From Erysipelothrix anatis (GTDB taxonomy: Bacteria; Bacillota_I; Bacilli_A; Erysipelotrichales; Erysipelotrichaceae): a stretch of DNA of 64,000 nt. The position numbers were made by a program, and so were the translations under genes. Each line of letters opens with the position of its first letter. The stretch's first letter is position 1. Shown piece after piece: positions 6,708 through 53,591 of the stretch. Under the pieces are notes generated by a model. It saw nothing but the letters and a program-made list of their open reading frames with translations. It was not told where the DNA came from and searched no databases. The stretch spans positions 1 to 64,000 of the forward strand of contig NZ_WTSX01000002.1 in NCBI RefSeq assembly GCF_009828745.1, written 5' to 3'.

Positions 6708-7431
6708 TGTTTATGCCTCCCATTACAATCTCATATTGTTTTGCGACGCTTATTTCTATCCTAGGGTTTGAAACAATTTCCGACACGGTTTCAATTGCCA
6801 GTGCTTCGGTATTTGCTTCTGCGCTCAAGTGAGCGAGTACTATTTGTTTCGTATTCTCTGTAACAACTTTTGATAACACTAATCCGGCATCGGCATTTGA
6901 CAAGTGCCCAACATCTGACAGTATGCGCTGTTTAATATAGTATGGCCTTATCGTTTTCATCAACATTTCCGGATCATGATTACTTTCTAAAATATAGTAA
7001 TCTGCATTTCGTAAATAGACGAGATCTGTTTCCTTAACATAGCCTGTATCGGTCATATAAACCAGCTTCCGTTTTCCATCATCAAGAACATAGCCTACAG
7101 AATATGCATCATCGTGCGATGTTTTAATCGGCATGATGTGAATCCCATCGATCTCAAAGGGTTCATATGGAGTGACTGTTGTAAAGTCTTCCATATCCGG
7201 AGACGATGTAAATACTGATTTGTTCTTGAAATGCTTTAATTGGCTTGTATGGTCTGAGTGGTCGTGAGTTATCAAAACATGATCGATATCATCAAATCTC
7301 AAGCCAAGAGATTCAAAACTTTGACTAAGGTATCTTTTGGTTGTACCACAGTCAATAAGGATGCGCGTACCTTTTGTCTCAATAATACATGCATTCCCTT
7401 TCGAACCACTTGCCAGTATTGCATAGTTCAT
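6694..7431 (-). CDS. walJ: MBL-fold hydrolase WalJ/YycJ
   Basis: A 245-residue metallo-beta-lactamase fold protein. The dinuclear metal motif HxHxDH is THDHSDH at residues 56-61, with further ligands in MTDTGY and the AHLSAE segment near residue 200. YycJ/WalJ proteins are DNA exonuclease-like enzymes usually encoded at the end of the walRKHI operon. Here the gene follows two M23 peptidase genes instead of walI. It overlaps htrA by 14 bases, so coupling is likely. Confidence 0.92.
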   Translation of the reverse strand: MNYAILASGSKGNACIIETKGTRILIDCGTTKRYLSQSFESLGLRFDDIDHVLITHDHSDHTSQLKHFKNKSVFTSSPDMEDFTTVTPYEPFEIDGIHIMPIKTSHDDAYSVGYVLDDGKRKLVYMTDTGYVKETDLVYLRNADYYILESNHDPEMLMKTIRPYYIKQRILSDVGHLSNADAGLVLSKVVTENTKQIVLAHLSAEANTEALAIETVSEIVSNPRIEISVAKQYEIVMGGINNEKQ

Positions 7432-7450
7432 TTCTTTACACCACCTCCTA

Positions 7451-8971
7451 CTAACAACCTAACACAGAACATGGATCAATCCGTGTTCCAGATTGGTAAA
7501 CTTCAAAATGAACATGGGCTCCAAAACTTCGACCCGTATTACCAATATACCCAATCGGCTGGCCTGCAGTAACAACCTCTCCGACTTGGACGTATGATCC
7601 CGGATTACGCATATGAGCGTAACGTGTTTGATATCCATTTCCATGGTCTATTAATACATAATTACCCCAATCGTCTTTGTATGTCGCTTCGATTACGACC
7701 CCACGGTCAGAGGCATAAATTTCGCCCAAACCGCCATTTCCAAAGTAAACGAAATCAGTTCCATTATGTCCTTGATAACAACTATTTCCATAAGCACAAG
7801 TGATGAATCCATTGGTAACAGGCCAACGGAACTTCCCACTCCCAATGCGAGGTTCAATTTTTGTACCGACCCGTACTTTTCCGCGTATTGGTTCGACTGT
7901 AGTGTGCTCCGATACTCTTTTCGAGGAAACTGACTGCATGTTGACCGTTGTATCGTTATACGTAACATCACGCAACCCATTACGTTCGACGACATCGATT
8001 ATTTCGACGCCTTCTTTTAGTTCTGGATCTTCTACATATTCAATGTCTTCGGGATAAACTATCTCCTCAATACGTCGTTCTCGAACAACTTCGACTGTTA
8101 GTGGCGAGTTAAACTTGCTTACATTAAGGACTGTTCCTGGCTGTAAGAGTTGTTCTCTACTAACAATTTTATCTCGGTTCAGCGAAAGAATTTGAGAGCC
8201 TGTCATCCCGTGCTTCCAACCAATACCATCAACGGTATCAAAGCGTTCGACTTCATACGTTTCAATATTTGGATCATATCCATAACTTAGAAACTTAAGT
8301 ACAGTTGCTTCGTCCTGCATTATTTTATCAACCGGTGCAAAGCCTGGTGTAACTTGAATCGTTTCTTTAACACTTAGCGCAATCTCTCGTTCACCGTAGC
8401 CAGTCATCGGCGGTAATTTTTCACCTTTTTTTAATACATTGTAGACATCATCCGATGACACAAAGTTTTTAATAAATCCTTCACGTGCTCGTTCGAAATC
8501 TTCAATGTTTTTCACGTAAATAATCGCACCGTTCGAAAACTCAATTTTATGTGCTTCAATAGCCAACAATCCTTGGTCGTAAAGGTAATTGAAAATTTCT
8601 GTGTCTTTGTTCTCGTACGAGTTATAGCTGAGTGCCTTTGTTGTGTAGACATCTTCTGACGGTCCTAGTTTCGAATTTTCAAATTTGTCTTTGTACTCTG
8701 CTTCATAAACACGATCAAAGTTGCTTTCAAACGATTCTGTATTGTTTAAGATTCCAATCAAGGTATCTTTTTGATATATTTTAACGACCTCATGGGGTTT
8801 ATCACTGGTTGCGACAACATTTTGTGGAATGATTGCTGAGGCAACATCTGTGATTTGATAAGTCTCACTATTTCTCATTTTGGAGTCACTTTGATTGAGC
8901 AAATATCCCAAAATAATACTTAGTAGAGCTGCTCCTAAAATAACGGGTAGCTGCTTTTTCAAATCAAACAT
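7451..8971 (-). CDS. Membrane-anchored M23 peptidase with LysM-like and G5 domains (copy 1)
   Basis: A 506-residue cell-wall hydrolase candidate: N-terminal membrane segment, a unique region of about 200 residues, a LysM-like segment near 230-280 (YEVERFDTVDGIGWKHGM), a G5 domain near 280-360, and an M23/lysostaphin-like zinc peptidase domain from about 385. Zinc ligands are seen in GHNGTDF and HVHFE. It should cut peptidoglycan cross-bridges or stems outside the membrane. The ATG at 8971 sits immediately after AAAGG, too close for a normal ribosome site. A TTG at 8962 gives KKQLPVILG, which aligns with MKKNFIVIG of the paralogue upstream, so 8962 may be the true start. Confidence 0.9.
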   Translation of the reverse strand: MFDLKKQLPVILGAALLSIILGYLLNQSDSKMRNSETYQITDVASAIIPQNVVATSDKPHEVVKIYQKDTLIGILNNTESFESNFDRVYEAEYKDKFENSKLGPSEDVYTTKALSYNSYENKDTEIFNYLYDQGLLAIEAHKIEFSNGAIIYVKNIEDFERAREGFIKNFVSSDDVYNVLKKGEKLPPMTGYGEREIALSVKETIQVTPGFAPVDKIMQDEATVLKFLSYGYDPNIETYEVERFDTVDGIGWKHGMTGSQILSLNRDKIVSREQLLQPGTVLNVSKFNSPLTVEVVRERRIEEIVYPEDIEYVEDPELKEGVEIIDVVERNGLRDVTYNDTTVNMQSVSSKRVSEHTTVEPIRGKVRVGTKIEPRIGSGKFRWPVTNGFITCAYGNSCYQGHNGTDFVYFGNGGLGEIYASDRGVVIEATYKDDWGNYVLIDHGNGYQTRYAHMRNPGSYVQVGEVVTAGQPIGYIGNTGRSFGAHVHFEVYQSGTRIDPCSVLGC

Positions 8972-38577: not shown

Positions 38578-38895
38578 ATGAACACACAGTTTAAAAAGGG
38601 TGTTCTTGAATTATGCGTCCTTGCTTTATTATCGAAAAAGGAACATTACGGTTATGAAATAGTAAGTCGTGTTTCGGAAACAATTGAAGTTTCAGAAGGT
38701 ACAATCTATCCATTATTACGGCGCTTACGTAATGATGGTTACGTTACGACACATCTTGTTGAATCAACACAAGGACCTTCTCGAAAATACTACACACTAA
38801 CATTGCAAGGTCAAGCATATACAGAAACAATGATCAACGAATGGCTCTCATTTACGGGCCACGTTAACGAAATATTAGAAGGAGAAATTGTATGA
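38578..38895 (+). CDS. PadR-family transcriptional regulator
   Basis: A 105-residue winged-helix PadR (short PadR-s2 type): LELCVLALLSKKEHYGYEIV, then EVSEGTIYPLLRRLRNDGYV with the recognition helix, and GPSRKYYTLTLQGQ in the wing. Such regulators usually repress their own operon and release it on envelope or drug stress. Its stop overlaps the start of the DUF1700 gene by four bases. The palindrome in its promoter is the likely binding site. Confidence 0.93.
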   Translation: MNTQFKKGVLELCVLALLSKKEHYGYEIVSRVSETIEVSEGTIYPLLRRLRNDGYVTTHLVESTQGPSRKYYTLTLQGQAYTETMINEWLSFTGHVNEILEGEIV

Positions 38896-39464
38896 CACGA
38901 AATGAATACTTATATATATTAAGAAAGAATCTACAATCACTCCCAATTGATGAAATTGATGACATTATCAATGATGTCGCAAGTCATTTTGACTTTGGGG
39001 TGGAAGAAGGAAAAAGCGAGGAGGAAGTTTCCAAACAATTGGGCGATCCAGTTGATATGGCCCGCCAATTCATTGGTGTAACGCCGAAACAACAATCTTA
39101 TGCCTATACCCAACCATCAAAAAGTTCGATTCCATCTTGGTTAAAGACATTAATAACTGTTTTCGCAGTACTATTTCTTGCACCACTTATCTTGAGCATT
39201 TATCTCTTGATTTTATCTTTTATTCTCGTAGGGATTTGCTTAATTATAGCTGCAGTCTTACTTTTACTTGCACCGGTTTTGGCTCCTCTTGCACCTGCAT
39301 TTGTCTCAATGCCATTGTCTTTTGCTAATGTTGTTTTACTGGTCTTAGGGTTCTCATTACTCGGTGTCGGTACAGCTTGGCTTTCAGTATTCGCTTTCCG
39401 TGGTTTTACAGTCTTAATTCGCAAAGGCTACTCAAGTCTCTCTCTTAGTTTGGAGGCGTTATAG
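38892..39464 (+). CDS. DUF1700 membrane protein
   Basis: A 190-residue protein. The N-terminal cytoplasmic module NEYLYILRKNLQSLPIDEIDDII...EEEVSKQLGDPVDMARQFI is the DUF1700/HAAS-type helical domain that often accompanies PadR regulators. It is followed by three or four membrane helices from about residue 75. In related operons such proteins are envelope-stress modulators. It is translationally coupled to padR and abuts the next gene. Confidence 0.88.
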   Translation: MTRNEYLYILRKNLQSLPIDEIDDIINDVASHFDFGVEEGKSEEEVSKQLGDPVDMARQFIGVTPKQQSYAYTQPSKSSIPSWLKTLITVFAVLFLAPLILSIYLLILSFILVGICLIIAAVLLLLAPVLAPLAPAFVSMPLSFANVVLLVLGFSLLGVGTAWLSVFAFRGFTVLIRKGYSSLSLSLEAL

Positions 39465-40331
39465 ATGAAACGTTCTGCGAAACGTCTTTGGATTCCTGTA
39501 GTCATGGTAATTGTCGGACTAATATTCACAGGAATCGGGATGACATCACTGATTACTGGGGTTGTAAACACTACATTTAAACCTGAAATTGTCGACACCA
39601 ATTTCCAAACTGAAACTTTCCAACTCAATGCATTAGATTCGAACTTTACGATTAAAACGAATAATATCAATAATGTCTGGATAACGTTCGATGACTCCAA
39701 ACCCTATGGTGGAGAGGCTACTGGTGACTTGAGCGAATTTAAAGTCACAGAATCATCAAATACTACGACGATTCAAACCGCACGTGATATTTGTGCAATT
39801 ACTTTTACTGGATGCTTCAAATCAAATTTTGATCACATCACATTGAATCTTCCTGAATCATATACTGGTTCAATTACTGTAAATGGTCTCGTACAGAATG
39901 TATCGGTCCACTCACAATCACTAACGACGTTAAGAAGTCTTGATATTAATGCCTTGAATACTCACGTTGAAATTCAAAACATTGATGCTAAAACTGAATT
40001 GAACGCTATGAATTTGGATGTTTCTCTATTTAATGTTTCTGGTCGTACTGAAGTAAATAGTATAAACAGCAAAAATGAAGTTTCAGAATTTCAACGACCA
40101 CTCTTTATGGACGTAAATGGAATGAACTCTACAGTAACAATAGCTGATCCAACTGGTGAATTGGGCTATCATGTCTCGTTCGAGAGTTTAGCAACTTCTT
40201 TCTCAGATAAACAAGCGGGAATAGAGCGGGATCGATTCTTCAGTTCAGGACAACCAATTATTAAAAACACTTCGAACAATTTATTAACACTTGAGCTCGA
40301 TGGGCTTAACCAGTCTGTCGTTGTCCGTTAA
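39465..40331 (+). CDS. DUF4097-like membrane-anchored beta-repeat protein
   Basis: A 288-residue protein with one N-terminal membrane helix (about 8-30) and a long extracytoplasmic region of short beta strands with regular spacing, such as INGLVQNVSV, INALNTHVEI, LNAMNLDVSL and VNGMNSTVTI. This parallel beta-helix pattern fits DUF4097/LiaG-like proteins found in PadR-DUF1700 operons. It starts immediately after the DUF1700 stop. It is thought to act in envelope stress sensing or response; the ligand is unknown. Confidence 0.75.
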   Translation: MKRSAKRLWIPVVMVIVGLIFTGIGMTSLITGVVNTTFKPEIVDTNFQTETFQLNALDSNFTIKTNNINNVWITFDDSKPYGGEATGDLSEFKVTESSNTTTIQTARDICAITFTGCFKSNFDHITLNLPESYTGSITVNGLVQNVSVHSQSLTTLRSLDINALNTHVEIQNIDAKTELNAMNLDVSLFNVSGRTEVNSINSKNEVSEFQRPLFMDVNGMNSTVTIADPTGELGYHVSFESLATSFSDKQAGIERDRFFSSGQPIIKNTSNNLLTLELDGLNQSVVVR

Positions 40332-40337
40332 AAATTA

Positions 40338-40366
40338 AGAACGCCTTGAGTAAGGCGTTCTTTTTT
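40338..40366. terminator. Terminator between DUF4097 gene and the ABC operon
   Basis: A 10-bp stem AGAACGCCTT/AAGGCGTTCT with a GAGT loop followed by TTTTTT on the plus strand, for the padR operon. The opposite strand has a looser T tract that may serve the converging ABC operon. Confidence 0.9.
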
Positions 40367-41039
40367 AGTGTTGGTCACGGTTTAAATAGTTTAATTTGAT
40401 TTTTAATGGTCTTTCTGTTTTATCAATAGTGTATTTCACGTAAATCACAGCAGCAACTCCTATTATTGCAAAAATACTATTGCGAAGTATCTCGTTATCT
40501 ACTTTTAGAACATATGTTGCAGCAATTAGAATTAAACACAATGGGATTCCCGAGATTGGATTTTTCTCTGAAAATAATATTATTTGTATTCGACCACGAA
40601 TGAATATTCTAACAATTGCTAACAGCAGCAGGCTCACGATGATTGATGAAATCTTGACCTGGGTCATACTCTTTGGAAATACAAGCCACACTGTCCCTGC
40701 AATTGTTATGCCAAATGCCATTTCTATCTGTGTCACATAACGCATCATCATTGAGAACATCGTTTTTTTGGATACGCCCTGATTTAACCATAATGCCTGC
40801 ATTGCTAGTGATAACTTTGGATCGATGAAATTCTTCACTGCTCGCACTAATATCAGATACATGATTATTATCACACCCAACAATAAATATGGCACAAGAT
40901 ATTGAAAACTTTTGAAATCGTCATAGAAAACTTGAAATGGCCAGATCAAGATTGAGGTGAACACTGCCGGGAGCAGTAAGAACCCTACTCCAAAACGAAC
41001 TGGATGTATTTTTATGTATCGATTGAAATGTTTCTCCAT
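40365..41039 (-). CDS. ABC-2-like membrane protein, paralogue 5 of tandem set
   Basis: A 224-residue protein with about six transmembrane helices. The start at 41039 is chosen because GGGAGG lies 11 bases upstream and outside the previous gene, and it gives the same length as its paralogues; the longer in-frame reading starts inside the upstream gene. After the second helix it has the shared MQALWLNQGVSKKTMF motif, and it ends LKIKLNYLNRDQH like the others. It is the last gene of the GntR-led operon. It is probably a half-permease partner of one of the two ATPases. Confidence 0.78.
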   Translation of the reverse strand: MEKHFNRYIKIHPVRFGVGFLLLPAVFTSILIWPFQVFYDDFKSFQYLVPYLLLGVIIIMYLILVRAVKNFIDPKLSLAMQALWLNQGVSKKTMFSMMMRYVTQIEMAFGITIAGTVWLVFPKSMTQVKISSIIVSLLLLAIVRIFIRGRIQIILFSEKNPISGIPLCLILIAATYVLKVDNEILRNSIFAIIGVAAVIYVKYTIDKTERPLKIKLNYLNRDQH

Positions 41040-41064
41040 AGACGCAATAGCCTCCCTATATTCG

Positions 41065-41739
41065 TTAATTATTTTCAGAAACATAGTTTGCTTCAATATC
41101 GTATCGAAGCCGCAATTTTGAAATTATATAAAGAAGATATGCAATCATAATTAAGATCATGACAATTAAAATCTGTTGTCGCACCATTATAAACTCTAAA
41201 ATATACTGTACTATGGAAATTGCAATCAGTACATGTAATGGGGAGATATGGATTAGTTTCTCTTCCACCAAAATCGACAAGAGAATCCAACGCAACACCA
41301 GTAACCGTAGTAGTAGAATGCTGCCGACTGTTATCACAATTATTTTAATATCGAGTATTGTAACTATGCCAGGATAAAATAATAAGGTAGTTATGATGAA
41401 AGAAAGTAATTGCGCCCATTCAAGCCAATAGATAGTTAATTTTAGTTGTCTGTAAATTTCAGTTTTTGTGAATCCCTGATTGACGAGTAGGTTTTGCATG
41501 CCTTCATCCAGTCGTATTTTACCAAAACTCACGACAGAGGATGAAATAGTACTATATCCCACAGCAAACACCATGAGGGTTGCAATACACAGAGATGGAA
41601 ACGCAGATACAGTCGGAGCTACAATTTGAAAGGAAGCAACAAACAATAACGAAAGTATAAACATGATACCCATAACTAATGACGTTCGACCGGCTCTTCC
41701 ACTATTAAAGTAATGGGCAAGCCTTAGTTCTTTTCCCAT
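41065..41739 (-). CDS. ABC-2-like membrane protein, paralogue 4 of tandem set
   Basis: A 224-residue protein with six predicted membrane helices. The shared cytoplasmic motif reads MQNLLVNQGFTKTEIYRQ, following the second helix. The C-terminus LRYDIEANYVSENN resembles the YLxxDI ends of its neighbours. It starts after AGGAGGAAATT, ten bases past the preceding stop. No individual function can be assigned. It is one of five consecutive homologous genes of similar size. Confidence 0.78.
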   Translation of the reverse strand: MGKELRLAHYFNSGRAGRTSLVMGIMFILSLLFVASFQIVAPTVSAFPSLCIATLMVFAVGYSTISSSVVSFGKIRLDEGMQNLLVNQGFTKTEIYRQLKLTIYWLEWAQLLSFIITTLLFYPGIVTILDIKIIVITVGSILLLRLLVLRWILLSILVEEKLIHISPLHVLIAISIVQYILEFIMVRQQILIVMILIMIAYLLYIISKLRLRYDIEANYVSENN

Positions 41740-41748
41740 AATTTCCTC

Positions 41749-42459
41749 CTAATCTACATCCATCCTAACAAACGCATCTTTCGACACTTTCCCTCGAATC
41801 GATAGCTTCACGACAATTGCCAGAATAATTACGCCATAGACTAGAGGTACCATTATATTTCGTTGAAGATCTGTCAATTTCAGTAACTTGCCAAGACTGT
41901 TCAAAACTTCATACCCGAAGAATAGTATCACCACCACCCCAACTTGCAGTATTTTTTCGAATGTTGTCTTATCATCTTCAGATTTAGTCCCATCCTTTAT
42001 TCCAAACACAAAGTATGGAATGAACATAAATACTAATATAGCTGATAAGATAATGACCACTAAGCCAGATAGTAAGCGTTGTTGAACCGGTACATTGTAA
42101 AACAATAGAAATCCCAAAGCTGTTGGTGGAATTAGCGCTAATGCAAGTTTTTTTAAATATATCTCGGCTGCGCGGTACATATCTTCTCTTTTCATCCCGA
42201 CACTTAACAGGTATGCTTGCATTTTGGGTTGAAGACTTGAAGAGAAAATAGTACCCGCCGCTCTTTGAACTAATAGAAATGGAACTCCAATCGATAGAAA
42301 CATAATTAAGTTGTTACCCTCAACTTCAACCACGTGATTTCCGACAACTTGATAGTCCTTAAACGTTGATACCATTCCTAATACGAATGAAATCATTAGA
42401 GACATGATTACTGTGAAACCAAATAAAGCAATGTGGTATTTTTTTAAGTATTGTTTCAT
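41749..42459 (-). CDS. ABC-2-like membrane protein, paralogue 3 of tandem set
   Basis: A 236-residue protein starting MKQYLKKYHIALFGF, with six predicted membrane helices. The shared motif is LQPKMQAYLLSVGMKREDMY after the second helix, and the C-terminus ends in RMDVD. The loop before helix 5 has a charged stretch (GIKDGTKSEDDKT) not seen in the other copies. It is placed within the same operon, 17 bases after the preceding stop. Confidence 0.78.
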   Translation of the reverse strand: MKQYLKKYHIALFGFTVIMSLMISFVLGMVSTFKDYQVVGNHVVEVEGNNLIMFLSIGVPFLLVQRAAGTIFSSSLQPKMQAYLLSVGMKREDMYRAAEIYLKKLALALIPPTALGFLLFYNVPVQQRLLSGLVVIILSAILVFMFIPYFVFGIKDGTKSEDDKTTFEKILQVGVVVILFFGYEVLNSLGKLLKLTDLQRNIMVPLVYGVIILAIVVKLSIRGKVSKDAFVRMDVD

Positions 42460-42476
42460 ATCACTTTTCCTTTCCC

Positions 42477-43157
42477 TTAAGAGATGTCACATTCAAGATA
42501 TGTTTTTCTGGGGTTTAAACTTCGAGTCATTCGGTGGATTGTTGTCCCAACTAGCATGACTAACATGATTAATATTAATGATACAGCCAATAAGTTCTTA
42601 TTGAGGTTATACGTTTCGACCAGAAAATCTATGCCATAGATTATCGACATAGTTACAATATATGCAGTGATGCTAAGCCATCGATCTTGCCCTGAAATTC
42701 TATCTTTAGCTATTTTTCCATTAGATAAGTCGTTACTTCCGTAATACAGACAAACAAGACCTAATAATAATGAGAGAATAACAACTAAAATTATTCCTTT
42801 AACTCTTAGCATCGGTTCTACGTCATAGAGTAATCCAAAACATACCCCAGTGACTGCAGTTGAAAGCCATAGTAAGCGATTCATTTGCCACTGATGTGCG
42901 GAAAAGATATCCTCTTTGGAGTGTCCCGCGCTTATTAGGTAAGACTGAAGTTCTAACGTAAGACTTTGGGATATAACATGTGCATTTGCTATAATCACAG
43001 TTACCGCAGGTATCACAATGGCCATGTACAACATTACAAACGAACTTCGTTCCACAGTCATACTCGATCCCAATCTTAAAACCATCATTATTAACACTAT
43101 TCCAATACTACTTCCAAAAAGTAAGAATGGATGCTTCATATTCAAATATTTTTTCAT
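42477..43157 (-). CDS. ABC-2-like membrane protein, paralogue 2 of tandem set
   Basis: A 226-residue protein starting MKKYLNMKHPFLLFG, with six predicted helices. The motif is LQSYLISAGHSKEDIFSA and the C-terminus is KTYLECDIS. It is closest in form to the upstream paralogue (KQSYLDADIG ending, YLxxxHP beginning), suggesting that these two are the most recent duplicates. It is a probable transport subunit of unknown substrate. Confidence 0.8.
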   Translation of the reverse strand: MKKYLNMKHPFLLFGSSIGIVLIMMVLRLGSSMTVERSSFVMLYMAIVIPAVTVIIANAHVISQSLTLELQSYLISAGHSKEDIFSAHQWQMNRLLWLSTAVTGVCFGLLYDVEPMLRVKGIILVVILSLLLGLVCLYYGSNDLSNGKIAKDRISGQDRWLSITAYIVTMSIIYGIDFLVETYNLNKNLLAVSLILIMLVMLVGTTIHRMTRSLNPRKTYLECDIS

Positions 43158-43174
43158 ATCGCAGTCTTCCTTCC

Positions 43175-43852
43175 TTAACCAATGTCAGCATCTAGATAGC
43201 TTTGCTTTGCATTCAGCCCATTTCCGTTGCTCTTTAACATGCAATAAATAAGATATCCAACAGCTACAAACCAAACGAATATCATTCTGTCTTGATGGGA
43301 TACCTTTGCGTAGCGCAAGAGTAGTGCAATCAAGCCCAGCATTAGAAATGTGATGACAGATTTACGCTGATTCGCATGCTCATCACTCGCTACACTCATA
43401 AGATTACCAATTACTGCGTTCGCCAGTAATATGTGAACGATACATTGAACAACTAACATTGCCACTGCAAGCATGACTCGCACAACACTCACTGGTCCGC
43501 CATAGGAAAATAAAAGGAGCATACTGTTAAATCCACTCGATATCATTGCATGCACGTAAATATATTTCCGAAACTCGTCTACGATTTCTTTTTTTGGAAT
43601 ACCTGCCCCCACTATGTAATTCTGCATATCAAGTGTCAGTGAGCGGTTACGTATATTCTCACACATCGCATAAACAATAAACGGTGCGACTAAAACCTGT
43701 CCAAGGACCTCAAAATAAGCTATATGGTCTTCTGGAAGTCCGCTAGGTATACTTATCAAAATCAAAAGTTGTATCGTTATCGAACTCACAACCGTAAAAG
43801 GGATAATACTAAGAACGCTGTAGGGATGACGAATGCGTAGGTAAGAATACAT
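43175..43852 (-). CDS. ABC-2-like membrane protein, paralogue 1 of tandem set
   Basis: A 225-residue protein starting MYSYLRIRHPYSVLS, with six predicted helices. The motif is MQNYIVGAGIPKKEIVDE and the C-terminus is KQSYLDADIG. ATG at 43852 follows AGGAGGGAACTG at a good distance; a GTG one codon earlier is possible. It is the first permease gene after the second ATPase gene, with a 15-base gap. Confidence 0.8.
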   Translation of the reverse strand: MYSYLRIRHPYSVLSIIPFTVVSSITIQLLILISIPSGLPEDHIAYFEVLGQVLVAPFIVYAMCENIRNRSLTLDMQNYIVGAGIPKKEIVDEFRKYIYVHAMISSGFNSMLLLFSYGGPVSVVRVMLAVAMLVVQCIVHILLANAVIGNLMSVASDEHANQRKSVITFLMLGLIALLLRYAKVSHQDRMIFVWFVAVGYLIYCMLKSNGNGLNAKQSYLDADIG

Positions 43853-43867
43853 CACAGTTCCCTCCTG

Positions 43868-44707
43868 TCATTTTGTCATAAATCGACGTGTTGGTTTCCG
43901 TTCAAGATAGTACATTATTTTCTCTAGAGATAATAGTTCAAGGTTATCAAGAGAATTATTTATATGTGTATCAATTAATGCTTGCGTTCCGAATTCATGG
44001 CGCCATGTATTAATAACACCTGCCAAAGGTACGTCATCAGCATCTCCTTGCCAAAGCTTGAACCGCTCGATAATTTCGATCGGAGCTGCATCGAATTGAA
44101 TCTGACCTTCTTTGAAGTAGATGATACGGTCTGCAATCCGCTCAAAATCTTCAACATTATTGGTAGCTACTACGACCGTTTTTGATTCATCGATGAGGTA
44201 ATCCTGTATTCCGGAAATTGTGTCATTTAAGGACTTAGTGTCCAAACCAAGCGTTGGTTCGTCTAAAAGCCAAACATCTGCATTTACAGCTTGAACAGTC
44301 GCAAACATAAGCATGCGAGATTGCCCTTTCGATAAGTCATTTACTTTGATATTGATAGGTATCTTATAGTTCGCTATTTTCTCATACCAGGTTTTTTTAT
44401 CGTAGGTTCGATAGATTACACTTAGTATGTCGTGGATTGTATAGGAGTTTGCATCGCTTGGAAATGGCGTTTTATCCGGCATATATGCAACTGTATGATT
44501 TTTTATATATTCTGAATAGGCGAGGTCATCATATGTAATGCTCCCACCATTCGGCTCTAGTATTCCTGCCATGACCTTTAGTGTCGTGGACTTACCTTTT
44601 CCATTTTTCCCCGCAAGTAAAACTAGTTCGCCTTGATGTATTGCAAAGTTAAGGGGACCAATTGTAATAGCATCTCTTTCTTTAATTAGTTCGTTTAGTT
44701 TAATCAC
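43868..44707 (-). CDS. ABC transporter ATP-binding protein (second of two)
   Basis: A 279-residue ATPase. Walker A is LAGKNGKGKSTTLK near 34, the signature is LSKGQSRML near 144, Walker B is DVWLLDEPTLGLD near 165, and the switch histidine position is replaced by asparagine in VVVATNNVEDF. It starts with GTG after GGAGG, overlapping the upstream ATPase gene by eight bases, so the two are probably made in equal amounts and may heterodimerise. The C-terminal 80 residues are specific to this protein. The loss of the H-loop histidine hints at an asymmetric dimer. Confidence 0.9.
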   Translation of the reverse strand: MIKLNELIKERDAITIGPLNFAIHQGELVLLAGKNGKGKSTTLKVMAGILEPNGGSITYDDLAYSEYIKNHTVAYMPDKTPFPSDANSYTIHDILSVIYRTYDKKTWYEKIANYKIPINIKVNDLSKGQSRMLMFATVQAVNADVWLLDEPTLGLDTKSLNDTISGIQDYLIDESKTVVVATNNVEDFERIADRIIYFKEGQIQFDAAPIEIIERFKLWQGDADDVPLAGVINTWRHEFGTQALIDTHINNSLDNLELLSLEKIMYYLERKPTRRFMTK

Positions 44708-45437
44708 GTTGAATTCCTCCTTGCATCAGCTCAACAAAACTTTCTACAGTTATCTTGTCAAAATTTACATTTCTCAATTCCAAAAGATTTTTAGCTTGGT
44801 CTTGAAATGATTCAATATCAGTAAACATTAGCATTTGACCTTGTTCTACATATGCGACAAAATCAATCATTGAACTCAATTCACGGACGAGGTGTGTTGA
44901 GATAATGGCGGTGGCATTATGTTCGAATACATAATCATAGAGATCTTCCATGATCTCCAGCCGGGTGGCTGGATCAATCCCTGTCGTCGGTTCATCAAAT
45001 ACTAGTAGTTTTGCATTATGAGATAGTGCAAGGGCCATTAAGAACCGCTGTTGCAATCCATAGGACAACGTTTTAATTTTCTTGTCCAATCGCAACTCGT
45101 ATTTCTGTGAATAGAACTCAAAGGCTGTTTCGTTCCACGTATCTTTATAAACAGCTTTCATAATTTTTAGGACTGCATTGGCCGTGAGATTATCGTTAAA
45201 AGGAAATGTGTCCGGTATATACGCTAAGGTTGATCTGAAATCCACGACTCCATCAAACGCCACACTTCCTTGTTTATTATCACGATTTCCCATGAGCATC
45301 TTGATGATTGTGGTTTTCCCAGATCCATTACCGCCAAAGAGGCCCAAGATTCCTTGTGGTAATGTAAAAGATATCGGTCCAATTTGAAGTAATTGATATT
45401 CTTTTTTTATGTCGTGTACTACAAGCCCCTTATTCAT
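44700..45437 (-). CDS. ABC transporter ATP-binding protein (first of two)
   Basis: A 245-residue ATPase. Walker A is LFGGNGSGKTTIIK, the signature is TLSYGLQQRFLMALAL, Walker B is LLVFDEPTTGID, and the switch histidine is present in ATAIISTHLVRE. It is similar to bacitracin/lantibiotic-type ATPases and YtrB. The start at 45437 is set by GGGGGAAACAAAT; its ATG overlaps the upstream stop (ATGAATAA). It is a full NBD, unlike the partner that lacks the H-loop histidine. Confidence 0.92.
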   Translation of the reverse strand: MNKGLVVHDIKKEYQLLQIGPISFTLPQGILGLFGGNGSGKTTIIKMLMGNRDNKQGSVAFDGVVDFRSTLAYIPDTFPFNDNLTANAVLKIMKAVYKDTWNETAFEFYSQKYELRLDKKIKTLSYGLQQRFLMALALSHNAKLLVFDEPTTGIDPATRLEIMEDLYDYVFEHNATAIISTHLVRELSSMIDFVAYVEQGQMLMFTDIESFQDQAKNLLELRNVNFDKITVESFVELMQGGIQRD

Positions 45438-46044
45438 ATTTGTTTCCCCCTTGGTTCCAAACCTGATATCGATTTTCTTTCCATTGCATATAAACTCCAA
45501 CAATTAGCGCTAAAGCCCCAATTACATAATTACGTGTCATCTGGAGATGCATTGTCATAGTATTGAAGAGATACATAGTAGTCACAATAATTGCTACGAT
45601 TGCAAATATCCCCTCCAATATTTTTCCTATAGTATCATTTTTCTTAACAGGAGTTTTATACAAACTCATCGATAAAAAGAAATAACCAAAGAAAACGAAT
45701 AATTGATTGAAAAAATTGAAGTAGTAATTAAATCCGAAGTAGATCCACGGTAGCTCGATTAGGGATGTTATAACAAGTGCAACTAGCGACGAAAATACTA
45801 TAGTTCCTAGGATGCGATCCCAAAGCGAAAGTGGCATTACTTCATAAAAATCATCAGTTGCTGGAGTCATATATATACCATACAAAATCAACCATTCTCC
45901 GGCACTTGTATAATAGTTTATTAATGATCTTTCCTGCACAAAGAACAAGGGTACTAAATGCAAAACATTGATTACTAAAACAATGATGACTATTCTTCGC
46001 CATTTATGTTTACTTTGAAGTAAATACTGTATTTGCCCGCTCAT
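45430..46044 (-). CDS. Membrane protein, probable ABC-2 permease subunit (GntR operon gene 3)
   Basis: A 204-residue protein with about five or six transmembrane helices. A possible coupling segment TDDFYEVMPLSLWDRILG lies after the second helix, resembling the PLSxxDRI segment of ABC-2 permeases. It does not share the MQxYL motif of the five downstream paralogues. The ribosome site AGGGGGAGAAGATA precedes ATG, and its stop overlaps the first ATPase gene. Substrate unknown. Confidence 0.75.
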   Translation of the reverse strand: MSGQIQYLLQSKHKWRRIVIIVLVINVLHLVPLFFVQERSLINYYTSAGEWLILYGIYMTPATDDFYEVMPLSLWDRILGTIVFSSLVALVITSLIELPWIYFGFNYYFNFFNQLFVFFGYFFLSMSLYKTPVKKNDTIGKILEGIFAIVAIIVTTMYLFNTMTMHLQMTRNYVIGALALIVGVYMQWKENRYQVWNQGGNKYE

Positions 46045-46058
46045 TATCTTCTCCCCCT

Positions 46059-46610
46059 CTATTGTAAAAACTTTGTAAAATTATTTCTTTTGTAGATGTA
46101 ATAGAATCCGTATAGCACTACAGTGATTATAGCTCCCGCTCCAAAGATCACAATACTGTTGAAAACCATGCCCAGAAAGGCAAATACGAAGAATGCGACG
46201 AATCCAAATGCTACTTCATTTTCGGTGCCTTTTTTCTTAACACCTTTGATGTTAATGTATGATCCTTCAACTAAGGACCACCCCAAAATTATGCCAGTCA
46301 TAAAGAATGTACTTGTAGCACTATTCCCTACTAAGGATAGTATCGATAACACGAATAAGGCTTCCACTAGTGCAATCCCCACCGTAACCACGGTCCGATC
46401 ACGTGGTGTTATTGGGAGTGCAAAATATGATAATTGCCCTTCTTTTTTAAACAAACGTGTTGTTAGCCCAGAGAATGCAATATAAAATGGAAAATAACTT
46501 GAATCATTGTTACCACTTATTGTACGAAGAAAGATAAATATTGAAAGGATAATACGAACGATAATTGTTCCCCATCGTTCTCTTAATTGAATACTGAGTT
46601 CGCCTGCCAT
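46059..46610 (-). CDS. Membrane protein, probable ABC-2 permease subunit (GntR operon gene 2)
   Basis: A 183-residue protein with five or six hydrophobic helices and the coupling-type segment EGQLSYFALPITPRDRTVV after the second. It is close in layout to the following 204-residue protein. It lies two bases after gntR with its own site (ATAGGAGAATAGAT). It is part of the ten-gene operon; it is inferred to be a permease half from position and motif only. Confidence 0.72.
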   Translation of the reverse strand: MAGELSIQLRERWGTIIVRIILSIFIFLRTISGNNDSSYFPFYIAFSGLTTRLFKKEGQLSYFALPITPRDRTVVTVGIALVEALFVLSILSLVGNSATSTFFMTGIILGWSLVEGSYINIKGVKKKGTENEVAFGFVAFFVFAFLGMVFNSIVIFGAGAIITVVLYGFYYIYKRNNFTKFLQ

Positions 46611-46612
46611 AT

Positions 46613-46993
46613 CTATTCTCCTATCTCTTCTTCTAAAATCTGCAACATCTCATAAACTTCCTTATAATCTATCGCTGCCGTCTTCGCAAGAATTAATGCT
46701 TCTTCCAGTTTTTGTTGAATTTCTGATAGGTACTTCTCTTGGATAAAATCTTTGTTTTGTTCAGCAACGTAGCTCCCTTTTCCAGGAACTGTTCGAATTA
46801 ATCCTTCACGCTCTAGTTCTTCATAGACTCGCTTTGTCGTAATTACGCTTACTTTCAATTCTTTCGCCAAATGCCGTATCGAGGGCATCAGCGTTCCAGG
46901 CACTAACGATCCATTCGCAATTTGATCACGTATTTGCGTCACAATTTGCTCATATATGGGCCTACTGTCATTATTTTTAATATATATCTGCAT
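46613..46993 (-). CDS. GntR family regulator, YtrA subfamily
   Basis: A 126-residue repressor. The winged helix is complete: PIYEQIVTQIRDQIANGSLVPGTLMPSIRHLAKELKVSVITTKRVYEELEREGLI (positions 13-67), then GKGSYVAEQN. The short helical tail of about 50 residues defines the YtrA type, which usually controls an adjacent ABC operon. It starts the ten-gene operon after AAGGAGGACATC. It probably binds the palindrome that overlaps its own promoter; the inducer is unknown, but cell-wall-active compounds act on relatives. Confidence 0.93.
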   Translation of the reverse strand: MQIYIKNNDSRPIYEQIVTQIRDQIANGSLVPGTLMPSIRHLAKELKVSVITTKRVYEELEREGLIRTVPGKGSYVAEQNKDFIQEKYLSEIQQKLEEALILAKTAAIDYKEVYEMLQILEEEIGE

Positions 46994-47004
46994 GATGTCC
47001 TCCT

Positions 47005-47043
47005 TGTATATACATTATATACACAGTATATATACAGTGTCAA
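47005..47043 (-). promoter_or_regulatory. Promoter and palindromic operator of the GntR-ABC operon
   Basis: Minus strand TTGACA (47038-47043), 18-base spacer and perfect TATAAT (47014-47019). A 32-bp imperfect palindrome with TGTATATA arms covers 47005-47036, that is, the whole spacer and the -10 and about ten bases beyond. This is the expected shape of a YtrA-type operator, so the repressor should block its own operon. Confidence 0.82.
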
Positions 47044-47088
47044 TATGCGTTAGATACAGTTGCCCCAAAATAAGAAAAAATAAAAAAC

Positions 47089-51117: not shown

Positions 51118-51612
51118 TTATCCAATCATTACGATTACAATCCGAAAAATGTACATAATGAATGTAAAAACCATCACGATTACACTTATCGAGTTGCCCA
51201 TATATTTGCGCATCCGCATTAAAAGCATGATCGTTGCATAATATACACAGTGCATCAGAACGGTTCTCACTAGCATTAATGTCGTCATCATCAACTCATT
51301 CAAAACTAGTTGAAGAAAGACTAAACTTACCAGAGTTTTTATACTCCTTCGAAAAATCAGTGCTAAATACTCATCTTCATTTAATCTGATTTTTAACGGA
51401 ATTTCCATCTGAATATACTGATATACCGTATCTGCATAACATAACCCTACAAACAGAATTGTACAAATGATGACAAATGTGTCGATTGGCAGCTCCGACA
51501 TACCAAAGTGAAGCATCTGGAATTGTCTAGTAATCTCTGGTGAGAATAATGTATAGAGGCTTGTTAAAAGAACTAGTAAATATGATTTATACTTACCAAA
51601 CTTATATCTCAC
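51118..51612 (-). CDS. Membrane protein, probable permease subunit of the second ABC cluster
   Basis: A 164-residue protein with four hydrophobic segments. Starts with GTG after GGAGAAATTC, overlapping the ATPase gene by 11 bases. A central segment IPLKIRLNEDEYLALIFRRS aligns in style with IRIGKDALDKAL and IRIGWENLYRRS of the two other membrane proteins in this cluster, so it is probably a third paralogous half-permease. No database family could be named by eye. Confidence 0.7.
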   Translation of the reverse strand: MRYKFGKYKSYLLVLLTSLYTLFSPEITRQFQMLHFGMSELPIDTFVIICTILFVGLCYADTVYQYIQMEIPLKIRLNEDEYLALIFRRSIKTLVSLVFLQLVLNELMMTTLMLVRTVLMHCVYYATIMLLMRMRKYMGNSISVIVMVFTFIMYIFRIVIVMIG

Positions 51613-52210
51613 GAATTTCTCCGTACTCTAATTCATAAACAGCGTCAAAATCAATACTCGATACACCATCGTGTGCACAGATAATACATGTCTTTTTCGC
51701 ATCTCTCAGTGACTCAATGATCTCATTAAACGCAGCGACGCTTTTTCTATCTAAACCCCGTGTAGGCTCATCCAGAAGAATCAAATCTTGATTCTCCATA
51801 ATTGCTTGAATAATCCCGAGTTTTTGACGCATTCCCAAACTATAGCTCTTAACCGGTTTCTTGCTTGTTATTTCAAGGTCGAATTGTTGCATAAGATTCC
51901 GGGTTTTTTCCCAATCAAAAGTTCCTGTTAACTCCGCCAAAAACTGTAAATTGAATAGAGCTGTTTCATGTTCAATGAACATTGGATTTTCGATTAAACC
52001 ACCAATTTTTTGAGAGGTTTCTACATAAATACTGCCTGAATCAGGATCGATGAGTTTAGCAATTAATTTCAAAAGTGTCGATTTCCCAGAACCGTTACCA
52101 CCTCTTATATGAACTAATGCCCCTTTCTTTATTTCTAAATTTAACCCATCCAACACCATCGTTCCCTTAAACGACTTTCTCAAAGATTTAACTGATACGC
52201 TTTTTCTCAT
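51602..52210 (-). CDS. ABC transporter ATP-binding protein (short BcrA/lantibiotic-type)
   Basis: A 202-residue minimal ABC ATPase: Walker A HIRGGNGSGKSTLLK, signature YSLGMRQKLGIIQA, Walker B DLILLDEPTRGLD and the H-loop in TCIICAHDG. It lacks the C-terminal regulatory region of longer homologues. It serves the membrane proteins around it, probably for export or self-protection against a membrane- or wall-active compound; the substrate is unknown. The start has AGGAAATTCA before ATG. Confidence 0.92.
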   Translation of the reverse strand: MRKSVSVKSLRKSFKGTMVLDGLNLEIKKGALVHIRGGNGSGKSTLLKLIAKLIDPDSGSIYVETSQKIGGLIENPMFIEHETALFNLQFLAELTGTFDWEKTRNLMQQFDLEITSKKPVKSYSLGMRQKLGIIQAIMENQDLILLDEPTRGLDRKSVAAFNEIIESLRDAKKTCIICAHDGVSSIDFDAVYELEYGEIREI

Positions 52211-52223
52211 TGAATTTCCTTTC

Positions 52224-52790
52224 TTATGTCAAGGTGATACCGGACAAAAACTCAACAACTTTTACATTAATATTCGAATAATGAAGCATTAGACTCATCA
52301 CGATAGGAAGTGCGAGTACTATTCCCGAGGCAATCCCTTTGAAAAATATAGACACGTTAATGACGAGGCACCATAAAAACATACATATCGCAATCCACCC
52401 TACGAATATTAGCACAAGCTTTTTCTCATAAATCCCACCCCAACCAATTATGATGAGGGGACCAAATCCAACGATGCAATACATCATCGTATCAAAAACT
52501 GCTTGTACCCATAGCGCTTTATCCAAAGCATCTTTCCCTATTCGAATTTGAATAGAATCTCGCATTCGTTTAATCAACCGCGCATTGTGGATTAGGTAAG
52601 TGAAAAAAGATGTTGTCACTAACATAGGAATAATATTAGCACTCATAATAAAGCTTTCCACCTTTAGTTTTTCTTCTGCTTTCGGAATTGTACTAATGTG
52701 AGGGTAGAGGACGTACATCGAATAACACACTGCAAACACGTAGCAAACAAGGTATCGTGATTTTTTTACTTTGATCCATGATTTACCCAT
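52224..52790 (-). CDS. Membrane protein, probable permease subunit of the second ABC cluster
   Basis: A 188-residue protein with five or six hydrophobic segments. The cytoplasmic segment between helices 2 and 3 reads DSIQIRIGKDALDKALWVQ, which is similar to the corresponding SSMAIRIGWENLYRRS of the upstream protein. The start overlaps the end of the out-of-frame tail of the upstream gene and has GGAGAAGGCTCT before ATG. The ribosome site therefore lies inside the tail coding sequence, supporting that the tail is real coding DNA. Confidence 0.75.
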   Translation of the reverse strand: MGKSWIKVKKSRYLVCYVFAVCYSMYVLYPHISTIPKAEEKLKVESFIMSANIIPMLVTTSFFTYLIHNARLIKRMRDSIQIRIGKDALDKALWVQAVFDTMMYCIVGFGPLIIIGWGGIYEKKLVLIFVGWIAICMFLWCLVINVSIFFKGIASGIVLALPIVMSLMLHYSNINVKVVEFLSGITLT

Positions 52791-52938
52791 AGAGCCTTCT
52801 CCGTTTCAATGTAAACCGATAGAGAATGTACGACACAAGAACGTAGAGTACTGAGGCTGATATGAAACTTTGAAGTACATAGCCATAGTGTGTCCCAGGT
52901 GATAGGATTGAAGATGGCATAACGATTGATAATATCGC
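52783..52938 (-). pseudogene. Out-of-frame C-terminal tail of the split permease
   Basis: About 50 codons in the -1 frame relative to the upstream gene. The reading passes KPVRAILSIVM, then SSILSPGTHYGYVLQSF, a hydrophobic helix ASVLYVLVSYILYRF, and a basic end FTLKRRRLYG before TAA. A helix followed by a basic tail is the usual ending of an ABC-2 permease. It has no start site of its own and overlaps the next gene by eight bases, just as intact genes in this cluster do. It belongs to the gene at 52941-53591. Confidence 0.7.
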
Positions 52939-52940
52939 TC

Positions 52941-53591
52941 TCACCGGTTTTTTTCAGCAATTGTTGGGATTAGCGTAACCAAGGATGTAAAAGCAGCAAT
53001 GTATATAAACACACTCAAGAATTTGTGGATTATTGGTATAAGAATATAGATATACGCATTGCGAATGTAATCTGCCATCAGAAATACGAATACAACATAA
53101 ATCCCAGTTCCCACCGACGCAAGTATCCAATGTGCAAAAACAATACCAGTATTTGCATGATTAATTAATTCTGACATCGTCCATAGCGATTCAATCTGAA
53201 ACGGTTCTAAAGTAAATGGATTCCAACAATGCACTGCAACGATGTTTAGACATTCAGTTAGAAAACGAATGATACACGCACTTAAAAATATCTTTACGAT
53301 ACTACGCCGATACAGATTTTCCCACCCAATTCGGATTGCCATACTCGATACTGCTTGAGAATGAAATATTCCGTAGATAGGATACAAAGCAATACCAATC
53401 GTGACCCACATTATCAATGGGTACAAATCAGTTGTTGCGCTTTCTTGTAGAACAACATATTGAAATGGACCATTTCCCGGGTGTGGACTCAGTGAAGACG
53501 TCCAAAAACTTACGTTGAAACTAAGCACATTTACAAGAATTACGATACATCCAATCTTAATTAGTTTGAGTCTCATTGGTTTGAACCTCAT
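52941..53591 (-). CDS. ABC-2-like permease, split by a -1 frame shift at an A7 tract
   Basis: A 216-residue product as read in the zero frame, with about five membrane helices and the coupling segment SSMAIRIGWENLYRRSIVK. It stops shortly after AEKNR, where the minus strand has seven A residues (52948-52954) forming A AAA AAC in the zero frame. This is the canonical -1 slippery heptamer. A shift to the -1 frame adds about 52 residues with a last helix and ends at 52783. Either programmed frameshifting, slippage or a single-base deletion can explain this. The start follows TAGGAGGTAAA. Confidence 0.75.
   Translation of the reverse strand: MRFKPMRLKLIKIGCIVILVNVLSFNVSFWTSSLSPHPGNGPFQYVVLQESATTDLYPLIMWVTIGIALYPIYGIFHSQAVSSMAIRIGWENLYRRSIVKIFLSACIIRFLTECLNIVAVHCWNPFTLEPFQIESLWTMSELINHANTGIVFAHWILASVGTGIYVVFVFLMADYIRNAYIYILIPIIHKFLSVFIYIAAFTSLVTLIPTIAEKNR

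Follow-up and report, generated by a model that had tools for sequence, protein, structure and literature searches.

A predicted ten-gene ABC exporter operon with one ATPase pair and five half-permease paralogues in Erysipelothrix anatis

The specificity of exporters is usually regarded as set by a single permease pair for each ATPase pair. The window of Erysipelothrix anatis DNA analysed here (64,000 nucleotides, on contig 18; genome size 2.19 Mb) contains an operon that raises the question of how two ATPases could be matched to seven small membrane proteins. The operon occupies positions 40365-46993 of the minus strand and consists of ten close-set genes in the order R-M1-M2-A1-A2-P1-P2-P3-P4-P5. 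Each gene is preceded by a Shine-Dalgarno-like sequence, and the spacing within the operon ranges from -8 to +25 bases, with 8-base overlaps at M2/A1 and at A1/A2. The ten open reading frames agree in coordinates and sizes with a preliminary description of the locus, which had also correctly given overlaps or gaps of less than 30 bases and overlapping ATPase genes. The features are as follows:

46994-47060, minus strand: predicted promoter and operator, TTGACA-18-TATAAT at 47043-47014, consensus match 12/12
47023-47005, minus strand: palindrome TGTATATA-ATG-TATATACA, covering the -10 and start region
46613-46993, minus strand: R, putative YtrA/PmtR-type GntR repressor, 126 aa (PF00392, 58 bits; best NCBIfam model PmtR, 117 bits, below the cut-off of 200)
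46059-46610, minus strand: M1, small membrane protein by hydropathy, 183 aa, with a coupling-like LPITPRDR motif and no family match above cut-off
45430-46044, minus strand: M2, small membrane protein, 204 aa, with an MPLSLWDR motif and a helical model (pLDDT 45.5)
44700-45437, minus strand: A1, ABC ATPase, 245 aa (PF00005, 76 bits; best NCBIfam model PmtA, 144 bits, cut-off 350), with the motif STH, H-loop His intact
43868-44707, minus strand: A2, ABC ATPase, 279 aa (PF00005, 73 bits), with ATNN, Asn replacing the H-loop His
43175-43852, minus strand: P1, predicted ABC-2 type half-permease paralogue, 225 aa (HMM cross-matches, alignment, profile comparison)
42477-43157, minus strand: P2, predicted ABC-2 type half-permease paralogue, 226 aa (AlphaFold2 model; Z ~12 to type V exporters over ~200 residues)
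41749-42459, minus strand: P3, predicted ABC-2 type half-permease paralogue, 236 aa (evidence as for P1)
41065-41739, minus strand: P4, predicted ABC-2 type half-permease paralogue, 224 aa (evidence as for P1)
40365-41039, minus strand: P5, predicted ABC-2 type half-permease paralogue, 224 aa (evidence as for P1; start from the E. aquatica comparison)
40337-40362, both strands: predicted bidirectional intrinsic terminator closing the operon, with an 11-pair stem on both strands (-15.8 kcal/mol, z -6.9)

One consensus promoter, a terminator at each end and the lack of any strong internal terminator within the ten genes predict a single transcript. Upstream of the operon, direct reading of the sequence shows a hairpin and then a T-run at the 3' end of pflA. 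The exact palindrome has a single occurrence in the genome and is present in identical form in E. aquatica. An operator-like site at G000:C11:39413 was set aside, as it precedes an unrelated FadR-like GntR gene. No plasmids carrying the operon and no known RNA families in the operon region were found. A convergent three-gene set on the plus strand (38578-40331) adjoins the operon, and presumably includes a PadR-like regulator and a DUF1700-like membrane protein, both named by reading the sequence; in E. aquatica the set is likewise adjacent to the operon, and in genome G083 it is close by.

Regulators of the YtrA subfamily of GntR proteins have an N-terminal winged helix and, after it, a short C-terminal stretch of ~50 residues (PMC4494728). 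In R, PF00392 spans residues 14-76 of 126 and leaves 50 C-terminal residues, PmtR is the best curated model, and a palindromic operator predicted by sequence covers the -10 and start region ahead of the ABC operon to which R belongs, all of which bears out the earlier assignment to the YtrA type. The staphylococcal Pmt system (PmtR-PmtABCD) has a short GntR repressor, an operator over the start site and a four-gene ABC transporter in the same operon (PMC5080381). The E. anatis operon shares with it the GntR repressor, the placement of the predicted operator across the start site and the co-operonic ABC genes, and Pmt models score highest for R, A1 and A2. All these scores stay far below the curated cut-offs (R and A1 as listed; A1 against PmtC, 82 of 375 bits; A2 against its best model PmtA, 126 of 350 bits), which places the three proteins, by sequence, within the wide YtrA/Pmt-like group and outside Pmt proper; no PmtC match above cut-off occurs in the genome. 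Pmt possesses two ATPases and two permeases in a different gene order. The operon further differs from Pmt in the H-loop Asn of A2 and in having no modulin gene, its gaps of at most 25 bases being too small for a peptide gene. YtrGABCDEF of B. subtilis comprises a YtrA repressor, two ATPases and several membrane subunits (PMC12772383), a combination found in both operons. Ytr differs in possessing two channel subunits and YtrF, without a tandem paralogue array. The resemblance to Pmt and to Ytr is thus one in kind.

The five genes closing the operon encode true paralogues despite a mean identity of ~19%, because the HMM of a single P protein picks up others (P2/P3 down to 6e-14, P1/P2 1e-8, P4/P5 3e-6), profile comparison joins them one to the next (P2-P3 97%, P1-P2 95%, P4-P5 93%, P1-P4 69%) and H9, L66, Q71 and G78 (P2 numbering) are invariant across all five. 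The claim of five homologous membrane proteins therefore stands after all-against-all profile comparison. Each of P1-P5 has five to six hydrophobic helices. The P profile finds no relative among solved-structure sequences, and no convincing relative outside Erysipelothrix among 295 genomes of the order; recognisable family members are present in four of these genomes, besides one marginal partial match (E 8e-4).

The AlphaFold2 model of P2 (pLDDT 69.8, pTM 0.65) comprises an elbow, TM1, TM2, a coupling helix and TM3-TM6, the helix names being our assignment on the model. Foldseek matches have weak E-values, and the first four rows consist of a mycobacterial efflux pump and NosY. Realignment of these matches places ~200 P2 residues on ABCG2, NosY, the mycobacterial pump and ABCG5/8; the Z values, at about 12, are just below the level of ~13 that helical bundles can reach by chance according to the warning of the tool. 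The consistency of the match list therefore outweighs the Z value: the leading rows are all type V exporters, i.e. ABCG2, NosY, the mycobacterial Rv1218c-system efflux pump, ABCH and ABCG5/8. With moderate confidence, the model assigns P2 over its full length to the type V (ABC-2) exporter permease fold, in line with the ABC-2 fold supposed earlier. The elbow helix, six TM helices and TM2-TM3 coupling helix of type V permeases are recognised in P2 via the model, and in P1 and P3-P5 via homology.

The best conserved 20-residue windows among P1-P5 fall at P2 residues 65-85 (36.5% identity vs 12-17% in TM2-TM6 and ~19% overall), which correspond in the model to the putative coupling helix, the ATPase-contacting segment; since ABC-2 families generally conserve their coupling helix, this alone is no proof of ATPase sharing. 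An accessory protein would not need this segment, and its retention in all five P proteins, each with five to six hydrophobic helices, argues against one fixed transporter (A1, A2, M and one P) in which the remaining P proteins would serve as accessory membrane proteins, as sensors or in self-protection, comparable to LanFEG-like lantibiotic immunity subunits and without exchange. Such an arrangement would suit the separation of P4/P5 from P1-P3 in the tree (support 85/92) and M1/M2 not being tied to the ABC-2 fold, but we consider it unlikely.

M1 and M2 show no recognisable kinship with this family, so that of the seven permease-like proteins originally counted, five are members of one family and two are of uncertain affiliation. 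Profile comparison reveals no detectable relationship of M1 or M2 to P1-P5, to each other or to the M proteins of other operons, a Pfam search returned no match, and the structure prediction of M2 (with M1) is of low confidence. The LP- or MP-type motif of both proteins sits in the likely TM2-TM3 loop, and the protein at the M-like position of the G083 operon (L039) shows a weak ABC2_membrane_5 match (E 0.021). From their operon position, M1 and M2 are candidate half-permeases. In locus L111 of G106 (6859-8127, minus strand), an M-type membrane domain is fused in frame to A1 into a protein of 422 aa; this fusion suggests that M works directly with A1.

The two ATPases differ at the H-loop. According to the alignment, A2 carries Asn in 10/11 copies of the genus, while His is present in 52/52 scored relatives outside the genus operons and is retained by A1 in 9/10 genus copies, the pattern expected for an obligate A1-A2 heterodimer. 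The exceptions are the A2 copy of L112, which retains His, and a degenerate A1 copy of L069 without it. As in asymmetric heterodimeric ABC exporters, one ATPase (A2, Asn) is degenerate and its partner (A1, His) intact, which points to one asymmetric obligate heterodimer with one working site rather than two separate transporters, although Asn at the H-loop reduces activity and need not abolish it. Asp replacing the Q-loop Gln in A1 and A2 was rejected as a defect, as it is present in 40/53 relatives.

Two separate homodimeric ATPase complexes, A1 with M1/M2 and A2 with P, the extra P proteins being redundant, would follow the Pmt-like affinities of the operon, since the NCBIfam models that score best are PmtR and PmtA. 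A two-ATPase operon of B. subtilis has likewise been proposed to yield two separate transporters, YtrB2CD and YtrE2F2 (PMC12772383). However, an A2 homodimer would carry two degenerate sites, at a position where all 52 outside relatives keep His, and the gene order M-M-A-A-P is unlike pmtABCD. We regard this arrangement as decidedly unlikely, and a single A1-A2 heterodimer remains our preferred reading.

In a public-genome scan, the closest relative of P2 (75% identity) is found in E. aquatica VA92-K48, which is included (as G097) in the genus search of 13 genomes. All ten genes are syntenic there, in the same order and with 69-96% identity (P orthologues 69-84%), and dN/dS between the two species rises from 0.03 (R) and 0.06 (ATPases) to 0.10-0.22 (M1/M2) and 0.13-0.37 (P genes). 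The ten-gene operon is therefore not a chance reading. Judged by these ratios, all ten genes are under purifying selection, with the membrane components least constrained, and all five P genes are intact in both species. A non-adaptive tandem amplification heading to decay, its five copies persisting by chance, could explain the high divergence of the paralogues and the faster evolution of P compared with the ATPases. It is nevertheless very improbable, with ten intact syntenic genes in two species, the P orthologues conserved to the extent given above and every P dN/dS well below 1.

At the same pflA-adjacent site, G083 possesses R-M-M-A1-A2-P with a single P. In G098, the site beside pflA (L069; 6116-12190, minus strand) holds a tandem duplicated R-M-A1-A2-P-M-A1-A2-P array, the upstream A1 copy of which has a degenerate Walker A (GQKESGKRT) and H-loop (STDD), as if now non-catalytic. 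G101, G102, G100, G096 and G106 have a related operon at another site, with a single P-like gene each and, in G106, the M-A1 fusion. The R-M-A1-A2-P operons elsewhere in Erysipelothrix share gene order and the A2 H-loop change with the operon studied here, and differ by one P vs five: the five-P array is found only in E. anatis and E. aquatica, and these sister operons have one P per A1/A2 pair. Across the wider family, A1 relatives are mostly GntR-ATPase-permease units with one permease, as far as the short stretches read extend. Five P genes per ATPase pair are therefore unusual in the genomes surveyed and seen only in two sister species, as the ratio had appeared from the single sequence. 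Distances of 4-5 changes per site separate the paralogues in the P tree, where the single P proteins from G083 and G101 form long branches, so that the tree fits both an array that grew once its lineage had parted from the one-P species and a loss of copies in the latter.

The best explanation, to which we give about an even chance, is a repressor-controlled modular type V exporter whose A1-A2 ATPase is shared by exchangeable P half-permeases. R would stay bound to the promoter of its own operon and come off in response to an inducer, probably envelope stress or a membrane-active peptide. A1 and A2 would form an obligate asymmetric heterodimeric ATPase, in which the working site takes its intact catalytic residues from A1 and its signature motif from A2, whose H-loop is degenerate. 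M1/M2 would probably dock on one face of the ATPase pair, and the opposite face would accept any single member of P1-P5 via the common coupling helix; exchange of P would alter the transmembrane path, and one ATPase pair could thereby serve several substrates. For the sharing of ATPases among permeases, as envisaged earlier, the A2 H-loop change from His to Asn and the conserved coupling segment speak indirectly, and the sharing itself is what we infer from them. More tentatively, the operon may encode a combinatorial exporter in which M1 or M2 pairs with any of the five P proteins on one shared asymmetric A1-A2 ATPase, with up to ten transporters per operon, an export counterpart of ECF modularity.

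Group II ECF transporters possess one ATPase module for several membrane partners. MsmK is one ATPase serving several importer membrane partners (PMC4519317). Both resemble the proposed exporter in this working principle only; they are importers of other folds with usually scattered partners, whereas exporter-type half-permeases are arranged here in one tandem array. In place of the EcfT scaffold and S-component of group II ECF transporters, the P2 model resembles type V exporters, and none of the seven membrane proteins matches an ECF membrane family. The operon is a variant of a known transporter kind, not a new kind, with a probably modular layout unusual for bacterial exporters. Five divergent half-permeases beside a single, apparently asymmetric ATPase pair would let subunit exchange in type V exporters be tested in a natural setting, to show which coupling-helix residues set docking and which TM-helix residues set the substrate, with the single-P sister operons as a ready control.

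Another example of multiple small membrane proteins per ATPase lies near pflB (51118-53591, minus strand), where a second compact ABC cluster groups one ATPase of 202 residues with surrounding membrane proteins 216, 188 and 164 residues long.
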